A DNA stretch of 34,008 bases, taken from assembly GCA_947169745.1 (NCBI GenBank), contig CAMVQZ010000015.1, forward strand, positions 1 to 34,008, read 5' to 3'. Position numbers and translations under genes: made by a program. Positions within the stretch are counted from its first letter, which is position 1. Every line of letters starts with the position of its first letter. The notes beneath the pieces were generated by a model, which searched no databases, was not told the origin of the DNA, and saw nothing but the letters and a program-made list of their open reading frames with translations. Below, piece after piece: positions 4,375 to 33,636 of this stretch. The DNA is from an uncultured Clostridia bacterium (lineage in GTDB: Bacteria; Bacillota; Clostridia; Oscillospirales; Acutalibacteraceae).

Positions 4375-7300
4375 TCAGTTGAGTTCACCGGGGAAGATAG
4401 CAGGAGCATTTTCCTCTATCTCAACGTCTCTGTATCTTGCCATACCTGTGCCGGCAGGAACAAGCTTACCGATGAGAACATTCTCCTTGAGTCCCATAAG
4501 AGGATCCACCTTGCCCTTGATAGCTGCGTCTGTGAGAACTCTTGTAGTCTCCTGGAAGGACGCTGCGGAAAGGAAGGAATCTGTTGCAAGAGAAGCCTTT
4601 GTGATACCAAGAAGAGTGGGGGAATAGGTAGCAAGAGAAAGCCCCTCTTCGCCTGCCTCGATCCTCTTTTCGATCTCTTCGTTTGCCGCATAGAAGTTGC
4701 CCTTGTCCACAAGAGAGCCGGGAAGAAGATCTGTGCTTCCTGGATCCTCAATGCGGACCTTTTTCATCATCTGACGAACAATGACCTCAATATGCTTATC
4801 GTTGATATCAACACCCTGGAGACGATATGCGCTCTGGACTTCCTCGATAAGGTAATCCTGAACAGCAGCTGCGCCCTTGATATTGAGTATCTCGTGGGGA
4901 TCCACAGAACCCTCGGTAAGAAGGTCGCCGGGCTCTACCATCTGGCCGTTTCTGACCTTTGCTCTTGCGCCGAAGGGAATGAGATATGTCTTGCTCTGAG
5001 CGCCGGACTTTTCATCTGAGAGATCAGTGCCTGTGATGACAGCATTTCTGTCCTCCAGTCTGACCTGACCGCCGATCTCAGTGATAATAGCGAGATGCTT
5101 TGGCTTTCTTGCCTCGAAGAGCTCTTCAACACGGGGAAGACCCTGTGTGATATCCTCACCGCCTGCAACACCGCCGGTATGGAAGGTACGCATGGTAAGC
5201 TGAGTACCGGGCTCGCCGATGGACTGAGCTGCGATGATTCCCACAGCCTCGCCGATAGTAACAGGCATACCGTTTGCAAGGTTGGAGCCGTAGCACTTTC
5301 TGCATACGCCGTGCTTTGCTCTGCAGTCCAGGATGGATCTGATCCTTATGCTCTGAGCGCCGGAATTAACGATAAGATCAGCGTCGTGATCGTCCATGAT
5401 CTTATCTGAGGATACGAGAAGCTCGCCTGTCTGCGGATCGTAATAATCCTCGCAGAGATATCTTCCCTGGAGACGCTCGTGCATGGACTCGATGATGGAA
5501 TCTCCGTCGCTGCTGTGTACTACCTTGACGACAACAGCACCGGAATCTATTATCATATCTATATCGCTGTCTGTAAGAAGCTTTCTTGCAGGGATGAGAC
5601 GGTTTCCGTCCTGGTCATTGAAGTCATCCATAAGCCGTCTGCCCTGGAGAGATACCCTGAGAGAGGTGAAGGTTTCCTCGGACTCATCCTCAGGAGAAGC
5701 CTTGACAGTAACAGAGGTTACGCCTGATTTAGCGATACGTTCTGCATCCTGTTCTGTGATAGGCTGATCCTTAACAGCGAGGACATCTCCTGAATCGGGA
5801 TCAGGAATATCATTTTTAGGATACTTGCCTATGATACCGGCTCTCATTGAAGTAAACTGTTCATAGGGACGGATACGTATATCTGAGATATTCTGAGCCT
5901 GGATAGCCCTGACATCTGTCTCGTCTATGATCTTATCTGTGGGGATAAGAAGTGTACCCGAAGCAGGATCATAGAAATTCTCAAAGAGGTGGTTACCAAC
6001 AAGATTTTCGTTGCTTACGCTGACTTCTTCGCCTGTTTCGGCGTTAGTCTGTCTGATATCATAAACTACGATGCCTTCCTTGGTTTTGCAGTCCTCCTCA
6101 CGGATAATAACATCCTGAGAAACGTCAACCAGTCGTCTTGTAAGATAACCGGAGTCAGCGGTACGAAGAGCTGTATCTGCAAGACCCTTTCTTGCGCCTC
6201 GGGAGGAAATGAAGTATTCCAGAATATTAAGTCCCTCACGATAATTTGCACGAATAGGAATTTCGATTGTTTTACCTGATGTATTTGCGATAAGTCCGCG
6301 CATACCTGCAAGCTGTCTGATCTGACTCATAGAACCACGGGCACCTGAATCAGCCATCATATAGATCGGATTATATCTGTCAAGGTTTGCCTTAAGGGCG
6401 TCTGTAACGTCGTTTGTAGCCTTTTCCCAGATATCAATGACCTTTGCATAGCGTTCTTCATTGGAGAGAAGTCCTCTTCTGTAAAGCTTTGTAATAACAT
6501 CGATCTCTTTTTCAGCCTGGGCGATAATAAGCTTCTTTTTCGGAGGTATTGTTGCGTCGCAGACAGCAACGGTGATAGCGCCCTTTGTAGAATACTTGTA
6601 GCCCTGTGACTTAACGTCATCGAGAACTCTTGATGTCACCTGTGTACCGTGTTTTTTGATACATTTGTCAAAGATTTTTCCCAGCTGTTTTTTGCCGACA
6701 AGGAAGTCGATCTCATATTTAAGGAAATTGTCCGGATCCGATCTGTCAACATAGCCCAGATCCTGGGGGATAGGTCTGTTGAAGATAATGCGTCCCACGG
6801 TTGTATCTATGAGGCGGGAAATCTTCTTGCCTGCGAAAACTCCCTCTCTGCGGACCTTTATTCTTGCATGAAGACTGATAACACCAGTCTGGTATGCCAT
6901 CAGTACCTCATCGGTATCACGGAATACCTTGCCTTCGCCCATTTCGCCGGGCTTGTCAAGTGTAAGATAATATGAACCAAGTACCATATCCTGAGTAGGA
7001 ACAGTAACAGGCTTACCGTCTGAGGGCTTGAGAAGGTTGTTTGCAGCCAGCATAAGGAAGCGGGCTTCAGCCTGAGCCTCAGCGGAAAGGGGAACGTGAA
7101 CAGCCATCTGGTCGCCGTCAAAGTCAGCATTGAAGGCGGTGCAGGCGAGGGGGTGGAGCTTGAGGGCCTTACCCTCTACCAGTACAGGCTCAAATGCCTG
7201 GATACCAAGTCTGTGAAGTGTAGGAGCACGGTTGAGCATTACAGGATGTCCCTTGATTACTCTTTCAAGAGCGTCCCATACCTCAGGCTGTGCTCTTTCA

Positions 7301-8544
7301 ACAGCCTTTCTTGCAGCCTTGATATTTGCAACAGAGCCGCTTTCTACAAGGATCTTCATTACGAAGGGCTTGAAAAGCTCAAGAGCCATTTCCTTGGGGA
7401 GACCGCACTGATACATTTTGAGCTCAGGGCCGACAACGATAACTGAACGTCCGGAATAGTCAACACGCTTACCCAGAAGGTTCTGGCGGAAACGTCCTTG
7501 TTTACCCTTGAGCATATCTGAAAGGGATTTGAGAGAACGGTTGGAGGGACCTGTGACAGGTCTGCCGCGTCTGCCGTTGTCAATGATGGCATCCACAGCC
7601 TCCTGGAGCATTCTCTTCTCGTTGCGGATTATCATTTTCGGAGCATGGAGCTCGATAAGTCTTTTGAGACGGTTGTTTCTGTTGATAACACGGCGGTAGA
7701 GATCATTGAGGTCGGATGTCGCAAAACGTCCGCCGTCAAGCTGTACCATAGGACGGATATCCGGAGGGATAACCGGAAGAACATTAAGTATCATCCACTC
7801 AGGTCTGTTTTTTGACAGACGGAAGGATTCCACTACCTCAAGCCTTTTCAGAAGCTTGATCTTCTTCTGGCCGCTGGCATTTTCAAGCTCTGCCTTCAGC
7901 TTTTCAGACTGTTCATCGAGATTGATCTCAGCAAGCAGCTTCTGGATAGCTTCCGCACCCATCATTGCCTCGAAATCCGAGCCGTATTTGTTTTCGTATT
8001 CCTTATATTCGTTTTCGGAGAGTATCTGCTGTTTTGTGATCTCTCTTTCAGCAAGAGAACCAGGCTTTACATATGTTACTATGTATTTTGCAAAATAGAG
8101 AACCTGTTCAAGATTTCTGGGAGTGATATCATCCAGCATAAGAGCCATTCTTGAAGGAATGCCCTTGAAATACCAGATATGGGAAACAGGAGCGGCAAGC
8201 TCGATGTGGCCCATTCTTTCACGCCTTACCTTGGATTTTGTTATCTCAACATGGCATTTTTCGCAGACTCTGCCCTTGTAGTGAATCTTTTTATATTTTC
8301 CGCAGTGGCACTCCCAGTCCTTTGTGGGGCCGAAGATAGCCTCGCAGAAGAGGCCGTCTTTTTCGGGCTTGAGTGTGCGGTAATTGATGGTTTCGGGTTT
8401 TGTGACCTCGCCGTAGGACCAGCCCTTGATCACAATTTCTTCTTCTTCTCCCTGTTCGTTGATGATCTTCTTAACGGTTTCCTTTCTCATCATTTCAGGA
8501 GAAGCAAGTCCGATCTTAATAGAACTGAACTCGTTAAATTCCAT
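4375..8544 (-). CDS. rpoC: DNA-directed RNA polymerase beta' subunit, with expanded inter-cysteine repeat region
   Basis: 1389 residues, about 190 longer than Bacillus-type RpoC. It forms half of the RNA polymerase active-site cleft. Zinc site 1 is at Cys79, Cys81, Cys94 and Cys97. The absolutely conserved magnesium-binding loop NADFDGD is at 472-478. The rudder/switch region around 330-370 ([18 protein letters not shown]) and the trigger-loop block ([17 protein letters not shown], about 1109-1125) are intact. Zinc site 2 uses Cys819, Cys1074, Cys1081 and Cys1084. The 255-residue step from Cys819 to Cys1074 is far longer than the 74 in E. coli (814 to 888), and it is filled with four copies of one module. 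The start lies 20 nt after rpoB with AAAGGGG upstream, so the two are translated from one message. All catalytic motifs are present, so the protein should be functional. Confidence 0.98.
5335..6015 (-). repeat. Four tandem copies of an about 50-residue module inside RpoC
   Basis: Residues about 844-892, 901-949, 962-1010 and 1021-1070 align by eye with the pattern (L/I)xG(R/K/N)..., D(P/Q)xxG, (L/V)(L/A)(I/V)xxxK/D, hydrophobic-T/D-(E/D)-x-D, hydrophobic, SG, then (I/V)(R/K)(I/V). Examples are [17 protein letters not shown] (copy 1), [16 protein letters not shown] (copy 2), [16 protein letters not shown] (copy 3) and [17 protein letters not shown] (copy 4). Most bacteria have one such unit between the first and second cysteines of zinc site 2. 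The copies are well diverged in DNA, so the expansion is old rather than an assembly artefact. Confidence 0.8.
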
Positions 8545-8564: not shown

Positions 8565-11500
8565 TTAAAAAATATCGTCGTCTGTATCGTCTGTATCGCC
8601 GAGCTCTGCTGATTCGTCAAGTATCATATCATCATCCGGCTCAACTATTTCATCCTCGCCGTTTTCATCCTTATACTGATATCCTTCTGCGTCGCTCTCG
8701 GTCATAATGTTCTTTTCATCGAGGATAGATGTATCAACAGGAGAGTCGTCGTCCAGATCTATTTCAAGATCTATCTCGTTATTGTCTCTGTCATATACCT
8801 TGATATCAAGAGCAAGGGACTGAAGCTCCTTGATAAGTACCTTGAAGGATTCCGGAATGCCCGGCTTCGGGATGTTCTGACCCTTTACGATTGCCTCATA
8901 TGTCTTGACACGGCCTACTACATCATCGGATTTGACTGTGAGTATCTCCTGAAGTGTGTATGCTGCGCCGTATGCCTCCAGTGCCCATACCTCCATCTCA
9001 CCGAAACGCTGTCCGCCGAACTGAGCCTTACCGCCCAGAGGCTGCTGCGTAATGAGAGAATAGGGACCGGTAGAACGTGCGTGGATCTTATCATCAACAA
9101 GGTGATGGAGCTTGAGGTAATACATATATCCCACAGTTACAGGATTGTCGAAGTATTCACCTGTACGTCCGTCCTTGAGCCTTATCTTTCCGTCCTCGCT
9201 AATTCCGGCGTCACGGAAGCACTGGAAAATATCCTGCTCGTGAGCTCCGTCAAAGACAGGTGTCATAATCTTCCAGCCAAGAGCCTTTGCGGCATATCCC
9301 AGGTGTACTTCAAGAACCTGACCGATATTCATTCGGGAAGGAACGCCCAGGGGGTTAAGAACGATATCAAGGGGTCTGCCGTCGGGGAGGAAGGGCATAT
9401 CCTCTTCGGGGAGTATCCTGGATACAACACCCTTGTTGCCGTGACGGCCAGCCATCTTATCGCCGACCTGGATCTTTCTCTTCTGGGCAATGTAGCATCT
9501 TACTACCTTGTTTACACCGGGAGAAAGCTCGCTGTCCGGATCCTCTTTATTGAATACCTTTACATCAACAATTATACCGTATTCGCCGTGGGGAACACGC
9601 AGGGAGGTATCTCTTACCTCTCTTGACTTTTCACCGAAGATAGCTCTGAGAAGTCTCTCCTCAGCAGTAAGCTCAGTCTCTCCCTTAGGTGTGACCTTAC
9701 CTACCAGGATGTCTCCGGAGTGAACCTCTGCGCCGATGTGGATGATACCGTTTTCATCCAGATCACGAAGCTGATCCTCACCGATATTCGGGATCTCTCT
9801 TGTGATCTCCTCCGGACCCAGCTTTGTATCTCTTGCTTCAGTTTCATATTCTTCAATGTGAATGGATGTGTATACATCATCACGAACGATCTTTTCATTA
9901 AGAAGGACCGCATCCTCGTAATTGTAGCCTTCCCAGGTCATAAAGCCGATGAGAGCGTTTTTACCCAGGGAGATCTCGCCGTTGTGAGTAGCCGGTCCGT
10001 CAGCAAGGACTTCTCCCTTAACGACTCTCTGGCCTACATCTACGATCGGTATCTGATTGATACAGGTGCCCTGGTTGGAGCGGCTGAATTTTATAACCTC
10101 GAAGGTCTGTATTCTGCCTGAATCGTACTGCACCCTGATCTCGTTTGCGCTTACATATCTTACAACGCCGTCCTCCTCAGAGAGTATGCAGACTCCTGAG
10201 TCAACGCCTGCCTTGTATTCCATACCTGTTCCCACGATGGGGGATTCTGTTACAAGGAGAGGAACAGCCTGACGCTGCATGTTTGAACCCATGAGAGCAC
10301 GGTTTGCGTCATCGTTTTCCAGGAAGGGGATCATAGAGGTAGCGACAGATACAACCATCCTCGGTGATACGTCCATATAATCTGCCTGGCTCTTCTCGAC
10401 TTCCACAAATTCATCTCTGTGTCTGCCGACTATCTTATCGTTGACGAATCTGCCTTCTTCATCAAGGGGCTCGTTAGCCTGGGCAACAATATAGTTATCC
10501 TCGATATCAGCTGTCATATAGTCAACGTGCTTTGTAACGATACCGGTCTCCTTGTCCACCTTGCGGTAGGGAGCCTCGATGAGACCGTATTCATTTATCT
10601 TTGCAAAGGTAGCAAGATAGGAGATAAGTCCGATATTGGGGCCTTCAGGTGTCTCGATAGGACACATACGGCCGTAGTGGGTATAGTGAACATCACGGAC
10701 TTCAAAGCCTGCACGGTCTCTTGAAAGACCTCCGGGACCAAGTGCCGAGAGACGGCGTTTATGTGTAAGCTCTGCAAGGGGATTGTTCTGATCCATGAAC
10801 TGTGAAAGGGGAGAGGATCCGAAGAATTCCTTGATAGCCGCTGTTACCGGTCTTATGTTTATCAGGGTCTTGGGGTCGATGTGATCGTAATCCTGAGCCT
10901 GACTTGTCATTCTTTCTGTGATGACTCTCTGGAGTCTTGTGAAGCCGATCCTGAACTGATTCTGGAGAAGCTCGCCTACAGAGCGGATTCTTCTGTTACC
11001 CAGGTGGTCGATATCATCGGTTGTTCCCACACCGTGGGAGAGAGTCAGCATATAGTTGATGGTCGCATAGATGTCATCAACAATGATGTGTTTCGGAACA
11101 AGGAGATCCTTTTTTCTGCGAAGCTCGTTTTTAAGCTCATCCTCCGGAAGTTCCATAGCAAGTATATCCCTGAGGATACACCAGCGGACCTTTTCGTTGA
11201 TTCCGCATTCTTCCTTTGCGTCAAAGGAAACATATCCGGAAATATCAACCATACCGTTGGAAATGATCTTGATCTCCTCCGGGACCTCCTCGGAGATCGT
11301 GGGCTGGGGCTTGATATAGGCGACTGATACACCCATATTTTCCAGCTCCATTGCTCTTTCCTTTGAGATGATCTCGCCTGCCTCTGCAAGAAGCTCGCCT
11401 TCATCACTGATGATGGGCTGTGAGAGCATCTGGTTTGCAAGCCTGTTGGCAAGACCTAATTTCTTGTTGTATTTGTATCTTCCGACTCTGGACATATCAT

Positions 11501-12311
11501 AGCGTCTGGGGTCGAAGAAGAGATTATTCAGGTGCTGCATTGCGGCATCCTTTGTGGCAGGCTCGCTGGGTCGGAGTTTCTTGTAAACCTCCTTGAGAGC
11601 GTCCTCGCCGTTTCTTGTGCCGTCCTTTTCAAGGGTAGAGGTAATGAGCTTGTCAGCGCCGAAGTATTCGATGATCTCGGAGTCGGTTTCAAGACCGTTT
11701 TCATATCCGAGAGCACGGATGAAGGTTGTGACAGGAAGCTTTCTGTTCTTGTCTATCCTTACATAGAATACATTATTGGCGTCATTCTCATATTCAAGCC
11801 ATGCGCCTCTGTTAGGGATAACTGTAGCGCTGAAAAGCTTGTTTCCGTATTTATCGTGATCCATCTTATAGTAAACGCCTGGAGAACGCACGAGCTGAGA
11901 GACTATGACACGCTCTGCGCCGTTGATGACAAAGGTGCCGCTGGGCGTCATCAGAGGGAAATCTCCCATAAAGATGTTTTCGTGATTCTGTACCTCTCCG
12001 TCCGGCTTTGTCAGTCTGACAGTAACCTTGAGGGGAGCAGAATATGTAGCGTCTCTCTCCTTGCATTCTGCAATGCTGTAATTCGGCTTTGAGATATCAA
12101 GCTTATAATCCACAAAATCAAGTACAAGGCTTCCCGAAAAGTCCGTTATACCGGAAACGTCCTCGAATACCTCTTTGAGGCCTTTGTCAAGGAACCACTG
12201 ATAGGAATCCTTCTGAATCTCAATGAGGTTGGGCATTTCCAGAACCTCATCGATGTGGGAAAAGCTCATTCGCTCGGTTTTACCTAAACGAATGGGTTTG
12301 ACGTTTACCAT
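8565..12311 (-). CDS. rpoB: DNA-directed RNA polymerase beta subunit
   Basis: 1248 residues from ATG 12311. The beta subunit forms the other half of the RNA polymerase active cleft and binds rifampicin. The rifampicin cluster is at about 498-529: [18 protein letters not shown] then [14 protein letters not shown]. The key positions Asp507, His517 and Ser522 are the sensitive-type residues; two flanking positions differ from E. coli (Pro501 for Gln510, Ala513 for Ser522). The rest of the core is standard, including [27 protein letters not shown] and [24 protein letters not shown]. The last about 60 residues form a strongly acidic tail. The frame stays open upstream to 12494, but that part crosses the leader and is not conserved protein; GGAG 8 nt before ATG 12311 supports the chosen start. 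The usual rplJ-rplL neighbours are absent upstream. Confidence 0.98.
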
Positions 12312-16773: not shown

Positions 16774-17724
16774 ATGATTGAGGTAAAAAATCTAACGAAG
16801 GTGTATGTCAGAGACAAAGCGCTGGATGATGTAAGCTTTACAGTTGAAAAGGGGAGTATCCTGGGATTTCTGGGTCCGAACGGCGCAGGAAAATCCACGA
16901 CAATGAATATCATCACCGGATATCTTTCCTGTGACAGCGGAAGCGTTCTGGTGGACGGCCACGATATTTTTGAAGAGCCGGCGGCTGTAAAGAAGATGAT
17001 CGGATATCTTCCGGAGATACCTCCGCTCTATAATGATATGACTGTCAGGAAATATCTGGAATTTATGTTCCGCCTGAAAAAGATCAGAAAGCCTATGAAT
17101 GAGAATATCAATAAGGTATGCCGTCTCGTGAAGATAGAGGATGTTTCCAAAAGGATAATACGGAATCTTTCAAAGGGCTACCGTCAGCGTGTAGGCTTTG
17201 CCCAGGCACTTCTGGGAGATCCGGAAATACTTATCCTGGATGAGCCTACAGTAGGACTTGACCCGGAGCAGATAGTTGAGATAAGAAAGCTTATCCGTGA
17301 CCTGGGAAGGGAGCATACGATAATCCTGTCCTCTCATCTTCTCAGCGAGGTTCAGGCTGTCTGCGATAAAATAGTTATCATCAATCACGGGAAAATAGTT
17401 ACCGAGGAGCTCACCTCATCCCTCACAAAGACAGGAGCTTCAACAGAAAAGCTTCTTCTGCTGATCGAGGGCAAGAGACAGGCTGTTTCCTCTCTTCTTA
17501 TGAAAACTGACGGCGTGGTAAAGGTAACAGACAGAGGAGAAGCGGAAAAGGGCTGCTTTGAATTTATGGTCGAAAGCAGAAGAGATGTCCGCCGGCTTAT
17601 TTTCAAGGCATTTGCCAAGTCTGAATTCAATATCCTTTCCATGACTCCGTCCCAGAAATCACTGGAGGATACATATATGGATATCATAACAGGAAAATCA
17701 GAAATAAGGGAGGAAAAGAAATAA
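16774..17724 (+). CDS. ABC transporter ATPase (GldA-like)
   Basis: 316 residues. It is the nucleotide-binding subunit of a four-gene ABC system. Walker A is GPNGAGKS (34-41), the signature is LSKGYRQR (132-139), Walker B is EILILDEP (151-158) and the switch histidine is His188 in SSHLLSEVQ. The segment IGYLPEIPPLYNDMTVRKYL is characteristic of the GldA/Gld-like branch. The C-terminal extension (about 220-316) is typical of that group. The TAA stop and the ATG of the next gene share one base, so the two are coupled. The family is named for Bacteroidetes gliding, but in Clostridia the same module occurs without gliding and its substrate is unknown. Confidence 0.9.
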   Translation: MIEVKNLTKVYVRDKALDDVSFTVEKGSILGFLGPNGAGKSTTMNIITGYLSCDSGSVLVDGHDIFEEPAAVKKMIGYLPEIPPLYNDMTVRKYLEFMFRLKKIRKPMNENINKVCRLVKIEDVSKRIIRNLSKGYRQRVGFAQALLGDPEILILDEPTVGLDPEQIVEIRKLIRDLGREHTIILSSHLLSEVQAVCDKIVIINHGKIVTEELTSSLTKTGASTEKLLLLIEGKRQAVSSLLMKTDGVVKVTDRGEAEKGCFEFMVESRRDVRRLIFKAFAKSEFNILSMTPSQKSLEDTYMDIITGKSEIREEKK

Positions 17725-18428
17725 TGTCAGCAATTTTCAAACGGGATTTCGCATCGTTCTTCACTTCTCCGGTGGGATATGCGGTAATTGCCGGGTTTAT
17801 GTTTTTCAGCGGTATATTCTTTTATGTGCAGTGCCTTTATGTGGGCACCTCGAATATGTCAACTGTTTTCCAGAGTATGTTTTTTATCGTCCTGTTTCTC
17901 ATTCCCCTTATCACAATGAGAACCATAGCTGAGGATAAAAAGCAGAAAACAGACCAGGCGCTTCTTACATCACCGGTTTCAATACCCTCGATAGTAGTTG
18001 CAAAATTTCTGTCTGCGCTTGCGCTTTTTGCGCTTTGCCTTTGCTCATATCTCATTGAGGGAATAATTCTCTCGTTTTATGCAAAGCCCGACTGGAGTGT
18101 TATTATCGGTAATGTTTTCGGTATGACAGTTATGGCTTCTTCCTTTGTAGCACTGGGAGTATTTATTTCCTCTGTAACGGAAAGCCCGATGGTCGCCGCT
18201 GTGGTATCATTTGTAATCAATGTTCTTATCAGTCTCTTTGATACAATTTCAGCCTCCGTGACCTGGGAGCCTCTTACAAACCTTCTGAATGCCATTTCTT
18301 TCCAGAAAAAATATGCAAACTTTGCCCTGGGACTTATCTCACTGTCAGATGTGGTATTCTTCCTGAGCATAGCGGCGGTATTTTTATTCCTGACCGAAAG
18401 AGTCATCAGCAGAAGAAGATGGGCATAA
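17724..18428 (+). CDS. ABC-2 type permease (GldF-like)
   Basis: 234 residues with about six membrane helices: a first helix near 18-38 (AVIAGFMFFSGIFFY), a second near 50-65 before the conserved PLITMRTIAEDKKQKT loop, and the remainder up to residue 230. The segment ITMRTIAEDKKQKTDQALLTSPVS is the usual cytoplasmic coupling motif of this permease group (EE/ED-R/K...LLTSPVS). It overlaps the ATPase stop by one base and is followed 12 nt later by the GldG-like gene. Together with the ATPase it forms the membrane core of the exporter. Confidence 0.88.
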   Translation: MSAIFKRDFASFFTSPVGYAVIAGFMFFSGIFFYVQCLYVGTSNMSTVFQSMFFIVLFLIPLITMRTIAEDKKQKTDQALLTSPVSIPSIVVAKFLSALALFALCLCSYLIEGIILSFYAKPDWSVIIGNVFGMTVMASSFVALGVFISSVTESPMVAAVVSFVINVLISLFDTISASVTWEPLTNLLNAISFQKKYANFALGLISLSDVVFFLSIAAVFLFLTERVISRRRWA

Positions 18429-18440
18429 GGAGGTTCTGAA

Positions 18441-20033
18441 ATGGCAGATAATAAGAAGAAGGAGACCGTCAGCGAAAAGCCTCTTGGTAAAAAAGAGGAT
18501 AAAATGACAGAAAAGGTCTCGGACAATAAAAAAACGGCAGAAAGCAAAAAGCCTGCAGCCCAAAAAGCGCAGGACGGAAAAAAGGATGAGGGAAAGAGCC
18601 CTCTTTCAGGGATGAAAAGGCGTACAAAGCAGAGGATAATATCAGCTGCGACAATATGCCTTGTGATCGTAGGCGCAGTGCTTCTGAATATAATCGCAGG
18701 GGCCCTGACAGACAGATATAACAGTCTTACGGCGGATATCACTCAGAAGGGCTCCTTCAATATCAGCGAAACGATGATAAAGCTGGCTTCCGGGATAAAA
18801 AAGAATGTGACGATAACATTTCTTGAGGATAAGGCTGATTATGAGGCTATGGACTCCTACTGCAAGCAGGCTACAAGTATTGCAGATCAGCTTTCAAGAC
18901 AGTCCGGAGGAAGGATCAGCGTTGAGTACACAGATCTTGTTAAAAACCCTACCTTCCAGAGCAAATATCCGGATGAAAGTCTTCAGGCAACAGATGTAAT
19001 TGTTTCCTCAGGAGAGGATAAGTATAATGTTCTCCATAAGGAGGATATGTATCAGTTTGCCGCATACGGAGATCAGTATTATATCTCCGCGTCAAAGGCT
19101 GAATCCGCCCTGGGAACGGCGATAGTAAATGTCACCAGCGACAGGAATGACAAGATTGCAGTAATTACGAATAACTGCGGTGACGATCCTTCTTATCTGG
19201 AAAAGGTACTGAAATCAAATAACTATGCTGTGGATGAGACGGATATTGAGGAAGGAAATATAGCCGGCAGTGCAAATACTGTTATAGCCTTCACTCCCAA
19301 GGCGGATTACAGCAAGGAGGCTGTGGCAAAAATAAGGAAATTCCTTGAAAATGACGGAAAATACGGAAAGAGTATGATATTCATAGCATACAGGGGTGAT
19401 GTGGATTCTCCCAATATAGATGCTCTTCTCAAGGAATATGGTATGCAGGTGAGAGAGGGTCTGGCATTTGATGCGGATACCTCCAGGATGATAAACGGCA
19501 ATGCATATAAGGATATAGTTGCGCTTTTCACCTCCAATCTCTATACGGACAATATCGGGGAAAATGACCCGGCAGTTATTGTGGGATATTCAAGGGCAGT
19601 TGTCTCCCTCAATGACAATGCAGTTCCCCTGCTTTCACTTTCCGATAAATCAGGCACCTGCCCCTATGACGCAGAACAGGGCAAATGGAATATGGACGAC
19701 GCCATAACCGGAGATACCCATATCCTTATGCAGGGACTGACAGGAACAGACGAAAGCTTTTCAAGAGTGATCTATTCCGGCTCCTCACTGATGTGGAGCG
19801 AAAGCTATATGCAGTCTCCTTATTCAAACCAGACCTATGTTCTGAATATAATCGATACACTGAATCACAGAGAGGATAATTCCGTCAGGCTTGAGGATAA
19901 GGTGATAACAGAATATGACCTTACTCTGGATTCCCGGACAAAGAGTATGATAGGCTTTGTTATGTATGCTCTTCTTCCTCTTCTGATAGTGGGCGCAGGC
20001 TTTACAGTATTCCTTGTTCGCCGCAGGAAGTAA
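18441..20033 (+). CDS. GldG family protein of the ABC system
   Basis: 530 residues. Its layout is an about 65-residue Lys/Glu-rich cytoplasmic tail, a membrane helix at about 67-89, a large extracytoplasmic domain (about 90-500), and a C-terminal membrane helix at about 502-526 ending in RRRK. The extracytoplasmic part begins with YNSLTADITQKGSFNISE, the typical entry to the GldG/DUF4350-like domain, and contains a strand-rich ABC-type auxiliary fold. The lysine-rich N-terminal extension is not part of the family core. SD AAGGAGG lies 7 nt before ATG 18441. Fixed order after ATPase and permease supports assignment as the auxiliary subunit; what it binds is unknown. Confidence 0.82.
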   Translation: MADNKKKETVSEKPLGKKEDKMTEKVSDNKKTAESKKPAAQKAQDGKKDEGKSPLSGMKRRTKQRIISAATICLVIVGAVLLNIIAGALTDRYNSLTADITQKGSFNISETMIKLASGIKKNVTITFLEDKADYEAMDSYCKQATSIADQLSRQSGGRISVEYTDLVKNPTFQSKYPDESLQATDVIVSSGEDKYNVLHKEDMYQFAAYGDQYYISASKAESALGTAIVNVTSDRNDKIAVITNNCGDDPSYLEKVLKSNNYAVDETDIEEGNIAGSANTVIAFTPKADYSKEAVAKIRKFLENDGKYGKSMIFIAYRGDVDSPNIDALLKEYGMQVREGLAFDADTSRMINGNAYKDIVALFTSNLYTDNIGENDPAVIVGYSRAVVSLNDNAVPLLSLSDKSGTCPYDAEQGKWNMDDAITGDTHILMQGLTGTDESFSRVIYSGSSLMWSESYMQSPYSNQTYVLNIIDTLNHREDNSVRLEDKVITEYDLTLDSRTKSMIGFVMYALLPLLIVGAGFTVFLVRRRK

Positions 20034-20045
20034 CGGAGGTAGGAA

Positions 20046-21704
20046 ATGAATAAAAGCATCAGAACACTTATTATCGCAGGTGTTATAGTTGTGCTTCTGG
20101 GAGGTGCTGCAGCGTTTCTTCTGAACCTTCCGGATAGTAATGACACAGAGAAAAAAAGTCAGAGCGGAGACATCCTCCTCTATGACAAGACCAGTCTTGA
20201 CGCTGAGGAGATCACTGTTGATAACAGCGGCGGTGAATATACTCTTGTGGGCTTCAGCTATAAGGATCAGGCGGAGAAGCTGAAAAAAGCCCAGTCAGAG
20301 GCTGCGGCTGAAAGCGAGACCTCTGAAGCTGCGGAAAGCTCGTCAAATGTCCGCAAGGAAGAGGAATCCGCCATCAACATATATATGCATTATACGATGC
20401 AGGGATATGAGGAGCTGGATGTTGCCAAGGACGAGGGAAACTCCCTTTCATACTGCAGCTCCTATGTCAGCGCTCTGGAGATTGTAGACAAGTCCGGCAA
20501 TAAATACAAGGATTACGGACTTGATTCTCCCAGATCTACAGTAAAGGTAGTATTCAGCGATAATTCCACAGAAACTCTCTATATCGGAAATGATGCGCCG
20601 GATAACAAGGGTGTATACTTCCGAAGGGACGGCAACGCAAATGTTTATCTGATGCAGGTGGAAAATGCAAAGCCCTTTCTTGTGGAGAAGCTTCAGATGT
20701 TTGACAAGGCTATGACAAAGGATCTGGATTCCGAGGCAGAAATAGCAACCCTTGATATTTCCGGTACAGCCTATGAAAAGGAAATTAAAATCGACAGGGG
20801 GTCAGATATCGCGTCTGCCGCTACATATAAAATGCGCTCCCCCTCCCGTGAAGTTGCTGCCCTGGATTCTGTCGAGAAAATAGCAGGCTCCTTGTTCGGA
20901 ATGACAGGCACCTGGGTTGAGGCAGTTCTTCCGGATAAGGAAACTATCAAGAAATATGGTCTTGATAAGCCGTATATGGAACTCAAGGCTACTGCCAGCG
21001 ACAAGTCAAAGGCTGATATCCTGGTATCAAAGGCAGAGAAGGACGGCTCCTGTTATGCTATGATACCGGGAGGAAAAACGATCTTCAGAATGCAGAAGGA
21101 GGATGTGGAGAAGTGGTACGGCGTAAAATATGAGGATCTCCTTGCCGCTACCTTTATCCTTCCCAATACTCCCAATGTTTCAAGAGCGAATATCACCACC
21201 GGAGGAAAGAGGTATGATTACAGGATAACCCATACCACCGGCAGGAATGACAACTATGAGGAATACACAAAGACTACCGTCAAGCTGGACGGCAAGGAAG
21301 TGGGCTTCTCGAACCTCGGCATATTTATCGACAATGTTTCCCGTCTTACAAGAAAGGGCGTTGATATCAATAGCCTGGACGGATATACCCAGGTATTTTC
21401 CATAGGCTTTGAATATGATTCCGAGGACAAGTCCCTGAAGGATGATCTCAGGATATATAAAAATGACAAGGGCAGCTATGTGGTGACCCTCAACGGCAAT
21501 ATCGAGGGCTATACCGACAGGGATGACGCCCAGGAGCTTATTTCTCAGGTCCCGAGGATAACCGGCTCCGATCAGCTGGAATATATCGGCGAAAAGAAAA
21601 AGAAGGAAGCCGAAGGCTCTGCCGAGGAGGAAAAGAAGGTGGATCCCTCCGTGTCCCAGCTCCCGGATATCTCAGAGAACAGCAGCTCCTCTTCAAAGCA
21701 GTAA
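20046..21704 (+). CDS. DUF4340 domain protein, accessory subunit of the ABC system
   Basis: 552 residues. One N-terminal membrane helix (about 8-27, LIIAGVIVVLLGGAAAFLL) anchors a large extracytoplasmic region with repeats of the DUF4340 pattern: SYVSALEIVD...YGLDSPRSTVKVVF near 150-180 and again KKYGLDKPYMELKATASD near 300-320. Residues about 75-105 are Glu/Ala/Ser-rich, and the C-terminal 40 residues are Lys/Glu/Ser-rich low complexity. GGAGG lies 6 nt before the start. DUF4340 proteins commonly follow GldG-like genes in Clostridia; no enzymatic role is known to me. Confidence 0.82.
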   Translation: MNKSIRTLIIAGVIVVLLGGAAAFLLNLPDSNDTEKKSQSGDILLYDKTSLDAEEITVDNSGGEYTLVGFSYKDQAEKLKKAQSEAAAESETSEAAESSSNVRKEEESAINIYMHYTMQGYEELDVAKDEGNSLSYCSSYVSALEIVDKSGNKYKDYGLDSPRSTVKVVFSDNSTETLYIGNDAPDNKGVYFRRDGNANVYLMQVENAKPFLVEKLQMFDKAMTKDLDSEAEIATLDISGTAYEKEIKIDRGSDIASAATYKMRSPSREVAALDSVEKIAGSLFGMTGTWVEAVLPDKETIKKYGLDKPYMELKATASDKSKADILVSKAEKDGSCYAMIPGGKTIFRMQKEDVEKWYGVKYEDLLAATFILPNTPNVSRANITTGGKRYDYRITHTTGRNDNYEEYTKTTVKLDGKEVGFSNLGIFIDNVSRLTRKGVDINSLDGYTQVFSIGFEYDSEDKSLKDDLRIYKNDKGSYVVTLNGNIEGYTDRDDAQELISQVPRITGSDQLEYIGEKKKKEAEGSAEEEKKVDPSVSQLPDISENSSSSSKQ

Positions 21705-29433: not shown

Positions 29434-32400
29434 ATGAAGGCAAAGAAACTTTCTAAGCGCATCATAGCGTCTGTTCTTTCCCTTATGCTGGTGATCGGCT
29501 GCTTCGTGATACCTGCAACTTTTGTCGGAGCTGCGGGCGGAGTCAAGGTCGTTTTCCATTATCTCCGCGATGACGGGGATTACACAGACTGGGGTCTGTG
29601 GTCATGGGGCAAGTCAGGCGGAAAGGTCTATGATGAAGAAGGCGCTGAAAGATCTGACTTTTACTTCACTGACAATGGTGACGCCAAGGGCGCAACTACC
29701 ACTGTTATGTCTGAAGGCGTGTCAGAGCTGGGCTTTATTGTAAGACTGGGCAACTGGAAGGCAAAGGATCCCGACGGTGACCGTTATCTCGATATCAGCT
29801 CAGTAGTATCCGGTACAGTACACGTATACTGCAAGACCGGCGAATCTGATTATGAGACAGATTTTTCAGAGGCTGTTACAGGTCTTAAATTAAGAACTGC
29901 TTCTGCAACAAACAAAACTACAGTTGAGTTCACTCTTACCAAGGAGCCGGATGAGGGCGACGAGGTAAAGGCAGCTGATTTCACCATCAAGTCCGCTGGC
30001 GGACATGAGGTGCCGGTCGCTTCCTGCACACTCAGCGGAGTGGACGGAACACTCACACTCGGTGAAGAGATCGATTATTCCAAGGATTATACAATTGATT
30101 TCAGAGGAACTGCTATGGATCTTCCTACCCCTGATTATTTCTCATCAGAGGAGTTTGAGGAGGCTTACACCTATAACGGAAACGATCTTGGTGTTACTAT
30201 CACAGATTCAGGCGAATCCAATTTCCGCGTATGGGCTCCTACAGCTGAGAAGGTAGAGCTTAACATCTACGCAGCTGGTAACGGCGGCACAGCAGAACAG
30301 GTTATCCTGATGGATAAGGCTGAAAAGGGTACATGGGTAGCTGCCGGCGGTAAGGGCCTTGTTGGCAAATACTACACATATACAGCTTATTTTGAAGGCA
30401 AGACAAACAAGGATATCGTTGACCCCTATGCAAGATCAGTGGGAGTTAACGGAAAGAGAGCTATGATTCTCGATCTCGACTCTACAGATCCTGAGGGTTG
30501 GGACAGCGATAAGAGACACACCTACAAGAATGCCACAGATATGTCTATCTATGAGCTCCATGTACGTGACTTCTCAACAGATCCCGACAGCGGCATCAAG
30601 AATGTCGGCAAGTATATTGCCTTTACAGAGACAGGCACAAAGACATCCGAAGGCGTTGCAACTGGTATCGATCATCTTAAGGAACTGGGAATCACATCAG
30701 TACATATCCTTCCTTCATATGATTACGGTTCAGTTGATGAAACAAAGCTTGACAAGCCTCAGTTCAACTGGGGTTATGACCCGGTAAACTATAATGCACC
30801 CGAAGGCTCCTACTCAACAGATCCCTATAACGGTGAAGTAAGAGTCAACGAGTACAAGAAGATGGTAAAGGCTCTCCATGACGCTGGTATCGGTGTTATC
30901 ATGGATGTTGTTTACAACCATACCTACAACACAAATTACTGCTTCAATCAGCTCGTTCCCGGCTACTTCTACAGACCCGGCCAGAACACCTCCGGCTGCG
31001 GCAACGATGTAGCTTCCGAGCGTTCAATGGTAAGAAAATTCATCGTAGACTCAGTTAAATACTGGGCAGATGAGTATCACCTTGACGGTTTCCGTTTCGA
31101 CCTTATGGGTATTCTTGATGTTGACACAATGAACGGCTGCCGTTCAGCTGTTGACGAGCTTGACAAGAACATCTTTATCTACGGCGAAGGCTGGGATATG
31201 GGTTCACAGCCCACAAAGAAAGTCGATATGGCCAACTTCCACAACACAGCAAAGACACCCGGTATCGCATACTTCAGCGACACAATCCGTGACGCTATCA
31301 GAGGTAATGTATTTACCGACACAGATAAGGGTTATGTAGGCGGCGGCGAGACTGCTGCTAACCTCAAGGTAGGTATCACCTACACAAACAAGTGGGCAAA
31401 TTCACCTGTTGAGATTATCAACTATGATTCCTGCCACGATAACCACACTATCTGGGACAGGATCGCAACCACAAATCCTGAAAACACAGAAGAAGAAAGA
31501 ATAGCTATGAATAAGATGGCCGCAGCTATCGTATTCACATCACAGGGCGTTCCCTTTATGATGAGCGGTGAGGAATTCCTCAGAACAAAGGTTAAGGAAG
31601 ACGGTACCTTTGATCACAACAGCTATGCTTCACCTGATTCAGTAAACCTCCTTGACTATTCAAGGATCAGCGATTATTCAGATTTCTACAATTACTATAA
31701 GGGTCTTATGCAGCTCAGAAAGAAGTATTCACAGTTCAGAATGTCTTCTGCTGAGGAAGTAGACTCAAGCATAAATTATTTCAAGAACAACAAGGGCGCA
31801 TTTGCGTATGAGATCACAAGACCTGATTCGGACACAATTGTTATCCTCAACCCCAAGACTGCTGAATGGACAGTAGATATTCCTGAGGGCGAGTGGGATG
31901 TTCTTGTTAACGCTGAAAAGGCAGGCACAGACGTTATCGAGACTATCGACAGCGGTTCTGTTACAGTTTCCGCTCTCTCTGCAACTGTACTTGTAAAAAA
32001 GCAGGCAGAGCAGGTCAAGCCCTTCGAGACACTGGGCGTTATCGGCGGCTTTAACAGCTGGTCAGAGGATATCGCGCAGATGACAGACGAGGACGGCGAC
32101 GGCGTATATGAAGCAACTATCGAAGGCGTAGAGCCCGGCGATTATGAATTCAAGGTCCGCGCAGACGGCGCTTGGGATTACAGCTGGGGCGCTTATGAGT
32201 CAGAATATGACAGAACTCAGAACAGCCAGATCAACTGCTCTGTAACTCTCAAGGAGGGCGACAAGCTGAAGGTCAGACTGGATACCACAAAGGTTGCTGA
32301 TGAGGCTAAGGCAAATACTGATTCTGCAGTAAATGATGACGACTTCAACTTCCTTGAGGACGGCTTCGATTTCTGGCCTGTTACCTTTGAGGTAGAGGAA

Positions 32401-33636
32401 GGCAAGAAGGAGCAGGTCAAGCCCTTCGAGACACTGGGCGTTATCGGCAGCTTCAATGGCTGGACAGAGGACTTTGCTCAGATGACAGATGAAGACGGCG
32501 ACGGCGTATATGAGGCAACTCTCTACGGTCTGGAGCCCGGCGAATATGAATTCAAGGTCCGCGCAGACGGCAAGTGGGATTACAGCTGGGGTTCTTATGA
32601 GAAGGACTATGACAGGACCCAGAACAGCCAGGTAAACCTTGTAAGAGTTCTTAACGAGGGTGAAACACTCACAGTCAAGCTGGATACGACCAGTGTGGAT
32701 CCTGATGCAAAGGACAATGCTGATTCTTATGTAAATGATCCTTCATTTGATTTCAATGAAGAAGGTTATCAGTTCTGGTGGGTATCGACCGTTACTGCTT
32801 CCGCTCCTGTACAGTTTATTCCCTTCGAGACACTTGGTGTTATCGGCAGCTTTAACGGCTGGACAGAGGATATCGCACAGCTGACAGACGAGGACGGCGA
32901 TGGTATCTACGAGGCAACTATCGAAGGCGTAGAGCCCGGCGATTATGAATTCAAGGTTCGTGCAGACGGCAAGTGGGATTTCAGCTGGGGCGCATATGAG
33001 AATGAGTACGACAGGACTCAGAACAGCCAGATCAACTGTACTGTAACAGTCGGCGAGGGCGAAACTCTTGTAGTCAAGCTGGATACCACAAAGGTTTCCG
33101 ACGCTGCAGCAGAAAACGCTGATTCCGGCGTAAACGCTCCCGGCTTTTCCTTCAACCTTGACGGCTATGAGTACTGGCCTGTTGATATTACTCTGATCGT
33201 AGAGGAAAGTTCAGACGAGAGCTCAGAGGAAAGCTCAGACGAGAGCTCAGATGAAAGCTCAGATGAAAGCTCAGACGAGAGCTCAGATGAAAGCTCAGAC
33301 GAGAGCTCAGATGAGAGCTCCGATGAAAGCTCAGTTGAAAGCTCCGACGAAAGCGTAACTTCTGATGATGAGAGCGTTGTTTCTGACGACAGCGTAGCTT
33401 CCGACGACAGCGAGGTTTCTGAGATCTCAGAGGAATCAACAGAGGACGAGAGCTCAGAGGAAGTCGTTGACAGCCAGCCTGTTGACGAGGGCAGTGATGA
33501 TGACGGCGATGTAGTTGTCGATGACGATACAGTCAAGACAGGCAACACAGCAGTTGCATTTATGTTCGTAGCACTTGCAGCAGCTGCAGCATTCGTAGTA
33601 GTTATCACATACAGAAAGAGAAAGCTCCAGAAATAA
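29434..33636 (+). CDS. pulA: Cell-surface type I pullulanase, multimodular
   Basis: 1400 residues. It cleaves alpha-1,6 bonds of pullulan and branched starch outside the cell. Order: signal peptide (1 to about 34, cut after VGAA); CBM41-like starch-binding domain (about 37-145, with DYTDWGLWSWG); Ig-like domain (about 147-228); CBM48 (about 250-340, NFRVWAPTAEKVEL); GH13 catalytic domain (about 365-770) with the type I pullulanase motif FNWGYDP (444-450), region I DVVYNHT (491-497), nucleophile Asp556 in GFRFDLMG, acid/base Glu585 in YGEGWD, and Asp669 in CHDNHT; a C-terminal beta domain; three about 120-residue repeats (863-1250); a Ser/Asp/Glu linker (1257-1365); and a membrane helix (1372-1392) with a basic tail RKRKLQK. 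SD AAAGGAG supports ATG 29434. The C-terminus looks like a wall-sorting signal whose motif is VKTGN, lacking the usual proline. Confidence 0.95.
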   Translation: MKAKKLSKRIIASVLSLMLVIGCFVIPATFVGAAGGVKVVFHYLRDDGDYTDWGLWSWGKSGGKVYDEEGAERSDFYFTDNGDAKGATTTVMSEGVSELGFIVRLGNWKAKDPDGDRYLDISSVVSGTVHVYCKTGESDYETDFSEAVTGLKLRTASATNKTTVEFTLTKEPDEGDEVKAADFTIKSAGGHEVPVASCTLSGVDGTLTLGEEIDYSKDYTIDFRGTAMDLPTPDYFSSEEFEEAYTYNGNDLGVTITDSGESNFRVWAPTAEKVELNIYAAGNGGTAEQVILMDKAEKGTWVAAGGKGLVGKYYTYTAYFEGKTNKDIVDPYARSVGVNGKRAMILDLDSTDPEGWDSDKRHTYKNATDMSIYELHVRDFSTDPDSGIKNVGKYIAFTETGTKTSEGVATGIDHLKELGITSVHILPSYDYGSVDETKLDKPQFNWGYDPVNYNAPEGSYSTDPYNGEVRVNEYKKMVKALHDAGIGVIMDVVYNHTYNTNYCFNQLVPGYFYRPGQNTSGCGNDVASERSMVRKFIVDSVKYWADEYHLDGFRFDLMGILDVDTMNGCRSAVDELDKNIFIYGEGWDMGSQPTKKVDMANFHNTAKTPGIAYFSDTIRDAIRGNVFTDTDKGYVGGGETAANLKVGITYTNKWANSPVEIINYDSCHDNHTIWDRIATTNPENTEEERIAMNKMAAAIVFTSQGVPFMMSGEEFLRTKVKEDGTFDHNSYASPDSVNLLDYSRISDYSDFYNYYKGLMQLRKKYSQFRMSSAEEVDSSINYFKNNKGAFAYEITRPDSDTIVILNPKTAEWTVDIPEGEWDVLVNAEKAGTDVIETIDSGSVTVSALSATVLVKKQAEQVKPFETLGVIGGFNSWSEDIAQMTDEDGDGVYEATIEGVEPGDYEFKVRADGAWDYSWGAYESEYDRTQNSQINCSVTLKEGDKLKVRLDTTKVADEAKANTDSAVNDDDFNFLEDGFDFWPVTFEVEEGKKEQVKPFETLGVIGSFNGWTEDFAQMTDEDGDGVYEATLYGLEPGEYEFKVRADGKWDYSWGSYEKDYDRTQNSQVNLVRVLNEGETLTVKLDTTSVDPDAKDNADSYVNDPSFDFNEEGYQFWWVSTVTASAPVQFIPFETLGVIGSFNGWTEDIAQLTDEDGDGIYEATIEGVEPGDYEFKVRADGKWDFSWGAYENEYDRTQNSQINCTVTVGEGETLVVKLDTTKVSDAAAENADSGVNAPGFSFNLDGYEYWPVDITLIVEESSDESSEESSDESSDESSDESSDESSDESSDESSDESSDESSVESSDESVTSDDESVVSDDSVASDDSEVSEISEESTEDESSEEVVDSQPVDEGSDDDGDVVVDDDTVKTGNTAVAFMFVALAAAAAFVVVITYRKRKLQK
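32020..33183 (+). repeat. Three tandem X25-like modules in the pullulanase
   Basis: Residues about 863-982, 998-1115 and 1130-1250. Each begins PFETLGVIGSFNGWTED (or close), continues with T-DEDGDG-YEAT, EPG-YEFKVRADG-WD-SWG and YDRTQNSQ, and ends with an aromatic near FWPV/YWPV. The pattern resembles the X25-type beta-sandwich modules found beside CBM48 in pullulanases and SusE/F-like starch-binding domains; binding is inferred. Long identical DNA runs (for example the stretch encoding QVKPFETLGVIGG/S in copies 1 and 2) suggest fairly recent duplication. Confidence 0.85.
33202..33354 (+). repeat. 12-bp tandem repeat encoding Ser-Ser-Asp-Glu units
   Basis: About a dozen near-identical units of the type AGCTCAGAYGAR encode SSDE/ESSD in the acidic linker between the last module and the membrane anchor. 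Such short-period coding repeats change length by slippage without shifting frame, and the linker probably spans the cell wall. Confidence 0.9.

Follow-up and report, generated by a model that had tools for sequence, protein, structure and literature searches.

An uncultured clostridial bacterium encodes an RNA polymerase β′ subunit (RpoC) in which a normally single domain, the BEAN domain β′-bD5, is present in four diverged copies. This array is best read as an expansion of the BEAN domain that took place within a single genus of uncultured Oscillospiraceae-like bacteria, and we are about 95% sure of its identity and history. On the minus strand of the window, the whole 34,008-nucleotide stretch of DNA that was analysed, rpoB and rpoC form a normal pair, and Pfam and NCBIfam make the identity of rpoC unambiguous (Table 1). 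The additional residues lie within zinc site 2. All four cysteines of this site are intact, as the original prediction held, and it also named the spacing correctly: about 255 residues between the first two cysteines instead of about 75. The count is 254 in the window RpoC and 73 in E. coli K-12, whose cysteines, at 814, 888, 895 and 898, agree with the E. coli spacing of 814 to 888 given in the original prediction. The interval first singled out, 5335-6015, corresponds to about residues 844-1070, that is, to the four units without the two cysteines.

Table 1. Positions of rpoC and rpoB features in the window.
Feature	Coordinates	Strand	Remarks
rpoC, β′ subunit, 1389 aa	4375..8544	minus	single open frame; TIGR02386 1799.9 bits against a cut-off of 963.5
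About residues 21-40, 20-residue insertion near the RpoC N-terminus	8425..8484	minus	
Cys819, first cysteine of zinc site 2	6088..6090	minus	aligns with B. subtilis Cys818
Residues 820-848, native BEAN first strand (EGIVVYDI) and linker to copy 1	6001..6087	minus	alignments to solved RpoCs start close to Cys819 and finish beyond copy 4
BEAN copy 1 (extra), residues 849-903	5836..6000	minus	
BEAN copy 2 (extra), residues 904-965	5650..5835	minus	least conserved; leans to the RpoB BEAN domain
BEAN copy 3 (extra), residues 966-1024	5473..5649	minus	
BEAN copy 4, native β′-bD5 unit, residues 1025-1073	5326..5472	minus	assigned by hhalign to one-copy relatives
Cys1074, Cys1081, Cys1084, remainder of zinc site 2	5293..5325	minus	
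β′ jaw as delimited here, residues 1151-1225	4870..5094	minus	enriched in fixed differences, four-copy versus one-copy
rpoB protrusion and lobe as delimited here, residues 91-500	10812..12041	minus	enriched in fixed differences; presumed rpoB start codon at 12311

The four units (55, 62, 59 and 49 residues from copy 1 to copy 4) are significantly similar to one another. In pairwise local alignments set against 2000 shuffles, five of the six unit pairs scored above every shuffle, and the score of the weakest pair, copies 2 and 3, was reached once in 2000. Scores ran from 45 to 97 and shuffle means from 21 to 24. A unit profile, trained on these and related units and so not independent, found four domains in the segment, each with an iE of 1e-19 or better. 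Self-alignment and profile together bear out the proposal of four diverged copies of one unit. Comparison by hhalign of profiles from 24 four-copy RpoCs and from 20 one-copy RpoCs identifies copy 4 as the ordinary unit: it matched the one-copy units with an E value of 1.6e-36, 65% identity and a probability of 99.9%. Copies 1, 2 and 3, the extra ones, matched the one-copy bD5 units at E values of 2e-15, 3.9e-14 and 2.9e-12 (probabilities 98.5, 98.2 and 97.6%). Shuffled units reached at most 7.6 bits, and medians between different copies were 11 to 47 bits.

The repeated unit is the α/β BEAN domain. An HHalign probability above 70% is one criterion for BEAN membership in PMC11515920; copies 1-3 and copy 4 all lie above it. 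The predicted structure of copies 1-3 alone (pLDDT 90) resembles the BEAN domains of RpoB, RpoC and MoeA, and the fold that unites RpoC bD5, the RpoB insertions and MoeA, two antiparallel α/β brackets, is present. Helices stand between the strands in each predicted copy. The three extra modules of the original prediction are thus there, but they are α/β BEAN domains instead of the β modules it had envisaged. The TGD/E motif, which the same text gives for the BEAN domains of RNA polymerase β and not as a β′ criterion (PMC11515920), reads TGE in copy 4 and SGT, SGD and DGN in copies 1-3. Membership of the HABAS/SI3 family was considered and rejected on the helices in each copy, the profile similarity to BEAN and a trigger loop that has no insert and aligns without gaps to that of C. 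thermocellum RpoC. The three alignments examined from a sequence search of the PDB were to one-unit RpoCs.

The extra copies seem to be nested in the native domain. In a larger model, solved RpoCs align over 81-86 near-contiguous residues (73 in one row) spanning about residues 74-341 of the model, alignments that are known by their first and last aligned residues only. This spread suggests that the native domain is whole and that about 180 residues, or three modules, are interposed. From these structural alignments we infer that copies 1-3 separate the native BEAN domain's first strand, beside Cys819, from the rest of that domain; the extra modules would then be embedded in it and not just added on. 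The insertion site in the window would lie early in bD5, whereas the published list, as far as the text gives it, has the second half of bD5 (PMC11515920).

Copy 2 has a more ambiguous affinity. Against RpoB units it gave an hhalign E value of 5.7e-10 over 61 columns, and copies 1, 3 and 4 gave 5e-5, 0.004 and 2e-5. A 56-column tree parted copies 1, 3 and 4 and the one-copy units from copy 2 and the RpoB units (100/99), with copy 2 outside the RpoB units. By hhalign, copy 2 is nearer the one-copy RpoC unit (3.9e-14) than RpoB (5.7e-10), and long-branch attraction in the tree is likely. Judged from its sequence, copy 2 is intermediate between the RpoC and RpoB BEAN domains, and it could have been captured from the adjacent rpoB gene.

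Within the genus, the array divides close relatives. Matches were obtained in 50 of 64 genomes, 24 with four copies (a match to the whole array model), 26 with one (a match to the last unit only) and none between; draft gaps may explain the 14 genomes without a match. The genus had fallen into the same kind of two groups in a first survey, with 51 of 60 relatives matched. Four-copy species have 249-258 residues between the two cysteines, and the one-copy members of the genus that were read have 72-73. The expansion is clade-restricted, as had been anticipated. Across the family (124 of 150 genomes matched) the whole array occurs only in the window's own genome. Across the class (359 of 391 matched), the best 30 loci of the matches all have inter-cysteine lengths of 72-77; of 24 genomes chosen chiefly because their matches were split or weak, 20 had their lengths read as well. 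A scan of named records, seeded with two peptide patterns of the array, returned 23 loci, all with the array, under titles naming uncultured Ruminococcus, Clostridiales, Clostridia or Ruminococcaceae and, in one case, roe deer rumen. The carriers are uncultured or metagenome records and, by record names, gut samples; we take RUG and Lapin in these names to mean rumen and rabbit. Among plasmid records, the five matches belong to other organisms, at 69% identity or less.

The phylogenies point to one gain followed by vertical inheritance. Four-copy rows form one clade in trees of the RpoC core, that is, RpoC without the inter-cysteine segment (24 of 44 rows, SH-aLRT 100), of RpoB (17 of 33 rows, SH-aLRT 100) and of AlaS and GyrA jointly (10 of 24 rows, bootstrap 100, SH-aLRT 100). 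Single AlaS and GyrA trees, which carry no support values, have the same clade. An initial AlaS tree had required two changes, with an outgroup row (G263) on a branch of 10 inside the carriers; this row was taken to be in the wrong reading frame, and the tree was rebuilt with the frame chosen by similarity. A single four-copy clade with one-copy outgroups implies one gain, and horizontal transfer of rpoC finds no support, since AlaS, GyrA and RpoB yield the same clade. Each copy is much closer to the same copy of other species than to its neighbours, which indicates that the array was complete before the clade radiated and speaks against ongoing copy change or gene conversion. The 20-residue insertion near the RpoC N-terminus follows the same division: it occurs in 18 of 18 readable four-copy RpoCs (six of the 24 rows have no readable N-terminus) and in none of 20 one-copy RpoCs. 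Two one-copy loci, L144 and L146, carry different insertions of 15 and 8 residues near this site, which suggests that the site is tolerant.

Smaller arrays occur elsewhere in the phylum. The genus coded g223 has three units in both genomes read; in its family, 39 of 40 genomes matched, and the others look single as judged by match position, not by individual lengths. A phylum scan matched 86 of 398 genomes at E 1e-12, the 312 below that threshold being outside the count. Seven genomes with early model starts comprised five of f134 and one of f164 with three units, some of them weak, and one of f195 with two. The repeated BEAN-like units lie between the same cysteines as in the window, but on a reading of the sequences f134, f164 and f195 have the extra units before the native first strand, whereas g223 and the window have them after it. 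Kinship and attachment point together suggest at least three separate origins of bD5 arrays, and the four copies of the window are the highest number seen. No plasmid record covered 80% of an f134-type query.

Several other long RpoC loci are of a different nature. Seven of ten genomes read in genus g86 (family f66) have an insertion of about 60 residues and inter-cysteine lengths of 131-134, the other three having 77; as a second array these were rejected, since the inserted residues, which lie in the second half of bD5, are charged and probably form helices. Genome G388 has a second rpoC fragment (L109, on G388:C5) beside L088 (on G388:C18), with a 199-residue inter-cysteine segment of another type and a TGA inside the adjoining match; it is perhaps another organism's contig in the bin. 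Loci L061, L063 and L105 (genus g31, family f25) have RpoC frames of 1356-1372 aa and a normal 77-residue inter-cysteine segment, so their extra length lies elsewhere in the protein. An apparent rpoB-rpoC fusion in G042 (open frame of 2482 aa) is in fact two separate frames of 1209 and 1255 aa. In the window itself, genes for an ABC transporter ATPase, an ABC-2 permease, ABC_transp_aux and DUF4340 stand in a row at 16774-21704 on the plus strand, a set reminiscent of the gliding-type Gld transporters. Also on the plus strand, 29434-33636 encodes a pullulanase-like protein of 1400 aa that combines PUD, CBM48, alpha-amylase and X25 domains.

The array evolves faster than the core of RpoC and is nonetheless constrained. 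Mean pairwise identities are 0.65, 0.53 and 0.67 for copies 1-3, 0.85 for the native copy and 0.93 for the core. In ten close pairs, some with synonymous distances near saturation, dN/dS was 0.05-0.21 for copies 1-3 with the linker (10 of 10 pairs), 0-0.06 for the native copy and 0.005-0.05 for the core. The low values for the extra copies indicate that the array is kept, if less strictly than the core. Outside the array, a burst of change is seen. Relative to mean one-copy depth over 24 shared taxa, the clade stem measures 0.24 in AlaS and 0.23 in GyrA, the only two reference proteins, 0.69 in RpoB and 1.09 in the RpoC core. Under a 90% rule (10 v 11 species), the count of sites at which the four-copy and one-copy groups are fixed for different residues, set against the count of sites that vary among one-copy species, is 6/432 in AlaS, 8/307 in GyrA, 23/329 in RpoB and 47/221 in RpoC. 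On the clade stem, RpoC outside the array thus evolved several times faster than AlaS and GyrA, and RpoB less so. The deepest four-copy species (L052/G036) is itself long-branched (RpoC 0.37, RpoB 0.31), so the burst was not confined to the stem.

Fixed differences cluster in outer parts of the enzyme in larger sets of 19 v 16 species for RpoC and 16 v 12 for RpoB. Under the 90% rule they occupy 12 of 69 columns of the jaw (odds 4.1, p 9e-4) and 16 of 303 columns of the RpoC N-terminal clamp (odds 2.3, p 0.03), and are scarce at residues 346-690 (2/345) and the C-terminus (1/161). The rim helices and bridge helix have one in 128 columns, and the zinc site and trigger loop none in 76, a near-absence that argues against a strong direct effect on catalysis. 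In RpoB, 23 of 30 fixed differences fall in residues 91-500 (odds 4.8, p 2e-4). A strict 100% rule reduces RpoC to six clamp and three jaw sites, non-significant, and leaves significant only the enrichment in RpoB (p 0.02). These regions, the jaw and RpoB 91-500 among them, were delimited once the lists had been seen, and their names follow general landmarks of the subunits. The stretch aligned to the B. subtilis β lobes 146-248, with limits taken from PMC7749165 and not from the lists, is also enriched (8 fixed and 25 variable sites inside, 22 and 317 outside; odds 4.6, p 0.002). These p values are uncorrected for the number of regions, the tests address clustering and not contact, and jaw, clamp and lobe are rather variable in any case.

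The array site gives this pattern a spatial context. According to the text of PMC7749165, B. subtilis β′ residues 794-1141 form the shelf and jaw, which crosslink to the β lobes 146-248 across the main channel, and the δ N-terminal domain lies between shelf and jaw. The array maps to B. subtilis Cys818-Cys892, within this stretch, and from the sequence alignment a position on the shelf, near the jaw, appears better founded than the secondary channel side first suggested; the effects on pausing, transcript cleavage or factor binding that were put forward with it are hypothetical. In E. coli, SI3 is situated outside the channel and touches the jaw, as described in PMC2939025. The single bD5 gained three more BEAN modules before one clade within the genus radiated, and the array has since been held at four copies, in register, under purifying selection. 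The extra modules would form an ordered stack on the β′ shelf near the jaw and, from a different attachment point, act like SI3 as an outer buttress. Such a buttress could shift how far jaw, clamp and β lobe move around downstream DNA, and with it open-complex lifetime and pausing. On this view, parts in contact with the array or held back by it were adjusted to match, and the differences fixed in jaw, clamp and β protrusion and lobe would be the trace of that adjustment. We advance this SI3-like action because the array lies in the shelf/jaw stretch, the lobe is enriched in fixed changes and SI3 contacts the jaw; contact of the array with jaw or lobe would be expected under it, and we rate this SI3-like reading at slightly less than an even chance. 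A bolder version is decidedly unlikely: a nested, perhaps chimeric BEAN stack, with copies 1 and 3 from bD5 and copy 2 from, or converging on, the rpoB BEAN domain, would serve as a built-in accessory subunit on the shelf, its arrival forcing a coordinated refit of jaw, clamp and β lobe.

The array might instead be tolerated accretion: extra BEAN copies arising by slippage or unequal exchange, bringing no benefit and fixed by drift, with the burst in jaw, clamp and lobe compensating for a slightly harmful insert and leaving the array unlosable. The faster change of copies 1-3 than of the native copy and core would fit, as would two- or three-unit arrays at two attachment points in other groups of the phylum, and neither δ nor GreA follows the array. 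We regard this account as unlikely, if a serious contender, since dN/dS indicates purifying selection and all 24 species with more than one copy have exactly four. The motif GNHLFEN(F/Y)YD in copy 1 is also conserved, in 9 of 9 rows of one set and 14 of 16 of another (the other two with one change each), counts that are biased by named rows found partly by that very pattern. Phage and accessory proteins dock on jaw and lobe, T7 Gp2 for instance on the jaw. The array, together with the altered surfaces of jaw and lobe, might form a shield that excludes phage proteins or antibiotics at the jaw or channel mouth, in keeping with the quick change of copies 1-3 and a burst specific to RNA polymerase. 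It is improbable, because within the clade without G036 the inner to one-copy depth of the RpoC core (0.061/0.155) is about as that of GyrA (0.124/0.327), unlike a running arms race.

A built-in replacement for the δ subunit was suggested by the array's position, which according to PMC7749165 is the same place as that of δ, and by jaw changes at 1215, 1218 and 1219, which flank residue 1217, aligned with the δ-crosslinked Lys1032 of B. subtilis. The δ subunit (TIGR04567 domain) is absent from all 27 genomes searched, B. subtilis and L. lactis being positive among 14 controls. But δ is equally absent from the one-copy species and outgroups among the 27, so the array replaced no δ when it arose, and we hold this role to be very improbable. 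GreA was found in 7 of 11 four-copy genomes (three of the four without it came from records lacking short contigs), 10 of 12 one-copy genus members and 3 of 4 outgroups. Neither GreA nor δ clearly separates the four-copy from the one-copy group in these counts, which lend no support to δ replacement or Gre factor loss. The window comes from a 177-contig draft, yet the same array in 23 further genomes rules out an assembly or annotation artefact, whose probability is negligible.

As a rule, lineage-specific insertions in RNA polymerase are ancient and characterise large groups, which makes what they do inseparable from other differences. With a threefold addition within one genus, beside sisters of plain form, the role of an insertion can be tested on enzymes that are close relatives, and the remainder of the enzyme indicates where an adjustment to the array may have occurred. 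If the bolder version above is true, domain accretion continues to remodel core RNA polymerase in present-day genera, and sister species that differ in having the array offer a natural experiment in the control of the channel by the outer parts of the enzyme. A literature search that covered titles and the openings of abstracts yielded no paper on bD5 arrays, although one of the rare variants of PMC11515920 could be such an array. An array that arose inside one genus runs against the conclusion of PMC11515920 that RNA polymerase insertions tapered off after early evolution and ceased later in bacterial evolution.

Among the closest known systems is the BEAN domain β′-bD5 itself (CATH 3.90.105.10), as described by Alvarez-Carreno et al. 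2024 (PMC11515920). The window has the same domain, likewise placed between the two arms of zinc site 2, but with three further copies that appear to follow its first strand, in part of one genus. The smaller phylum arrays share this setting with three units (f134, f164, g223) or two (f195) in place of four. The BEAN insertion of Firmicutes RpoB (type 3, β lobe) differs in lying in the other subunit and in being a single copy. SI3, or β′i6, with which PMC13114784 deals, resembles the array in being a stack of small repeated domains that is specific to its lineage, and in cyanobacteria it is nested. SI3, however, consists of HABAS/SBHM domains inside the trigger loop, whereas the array of the window consists of BEAN domains in bD5.
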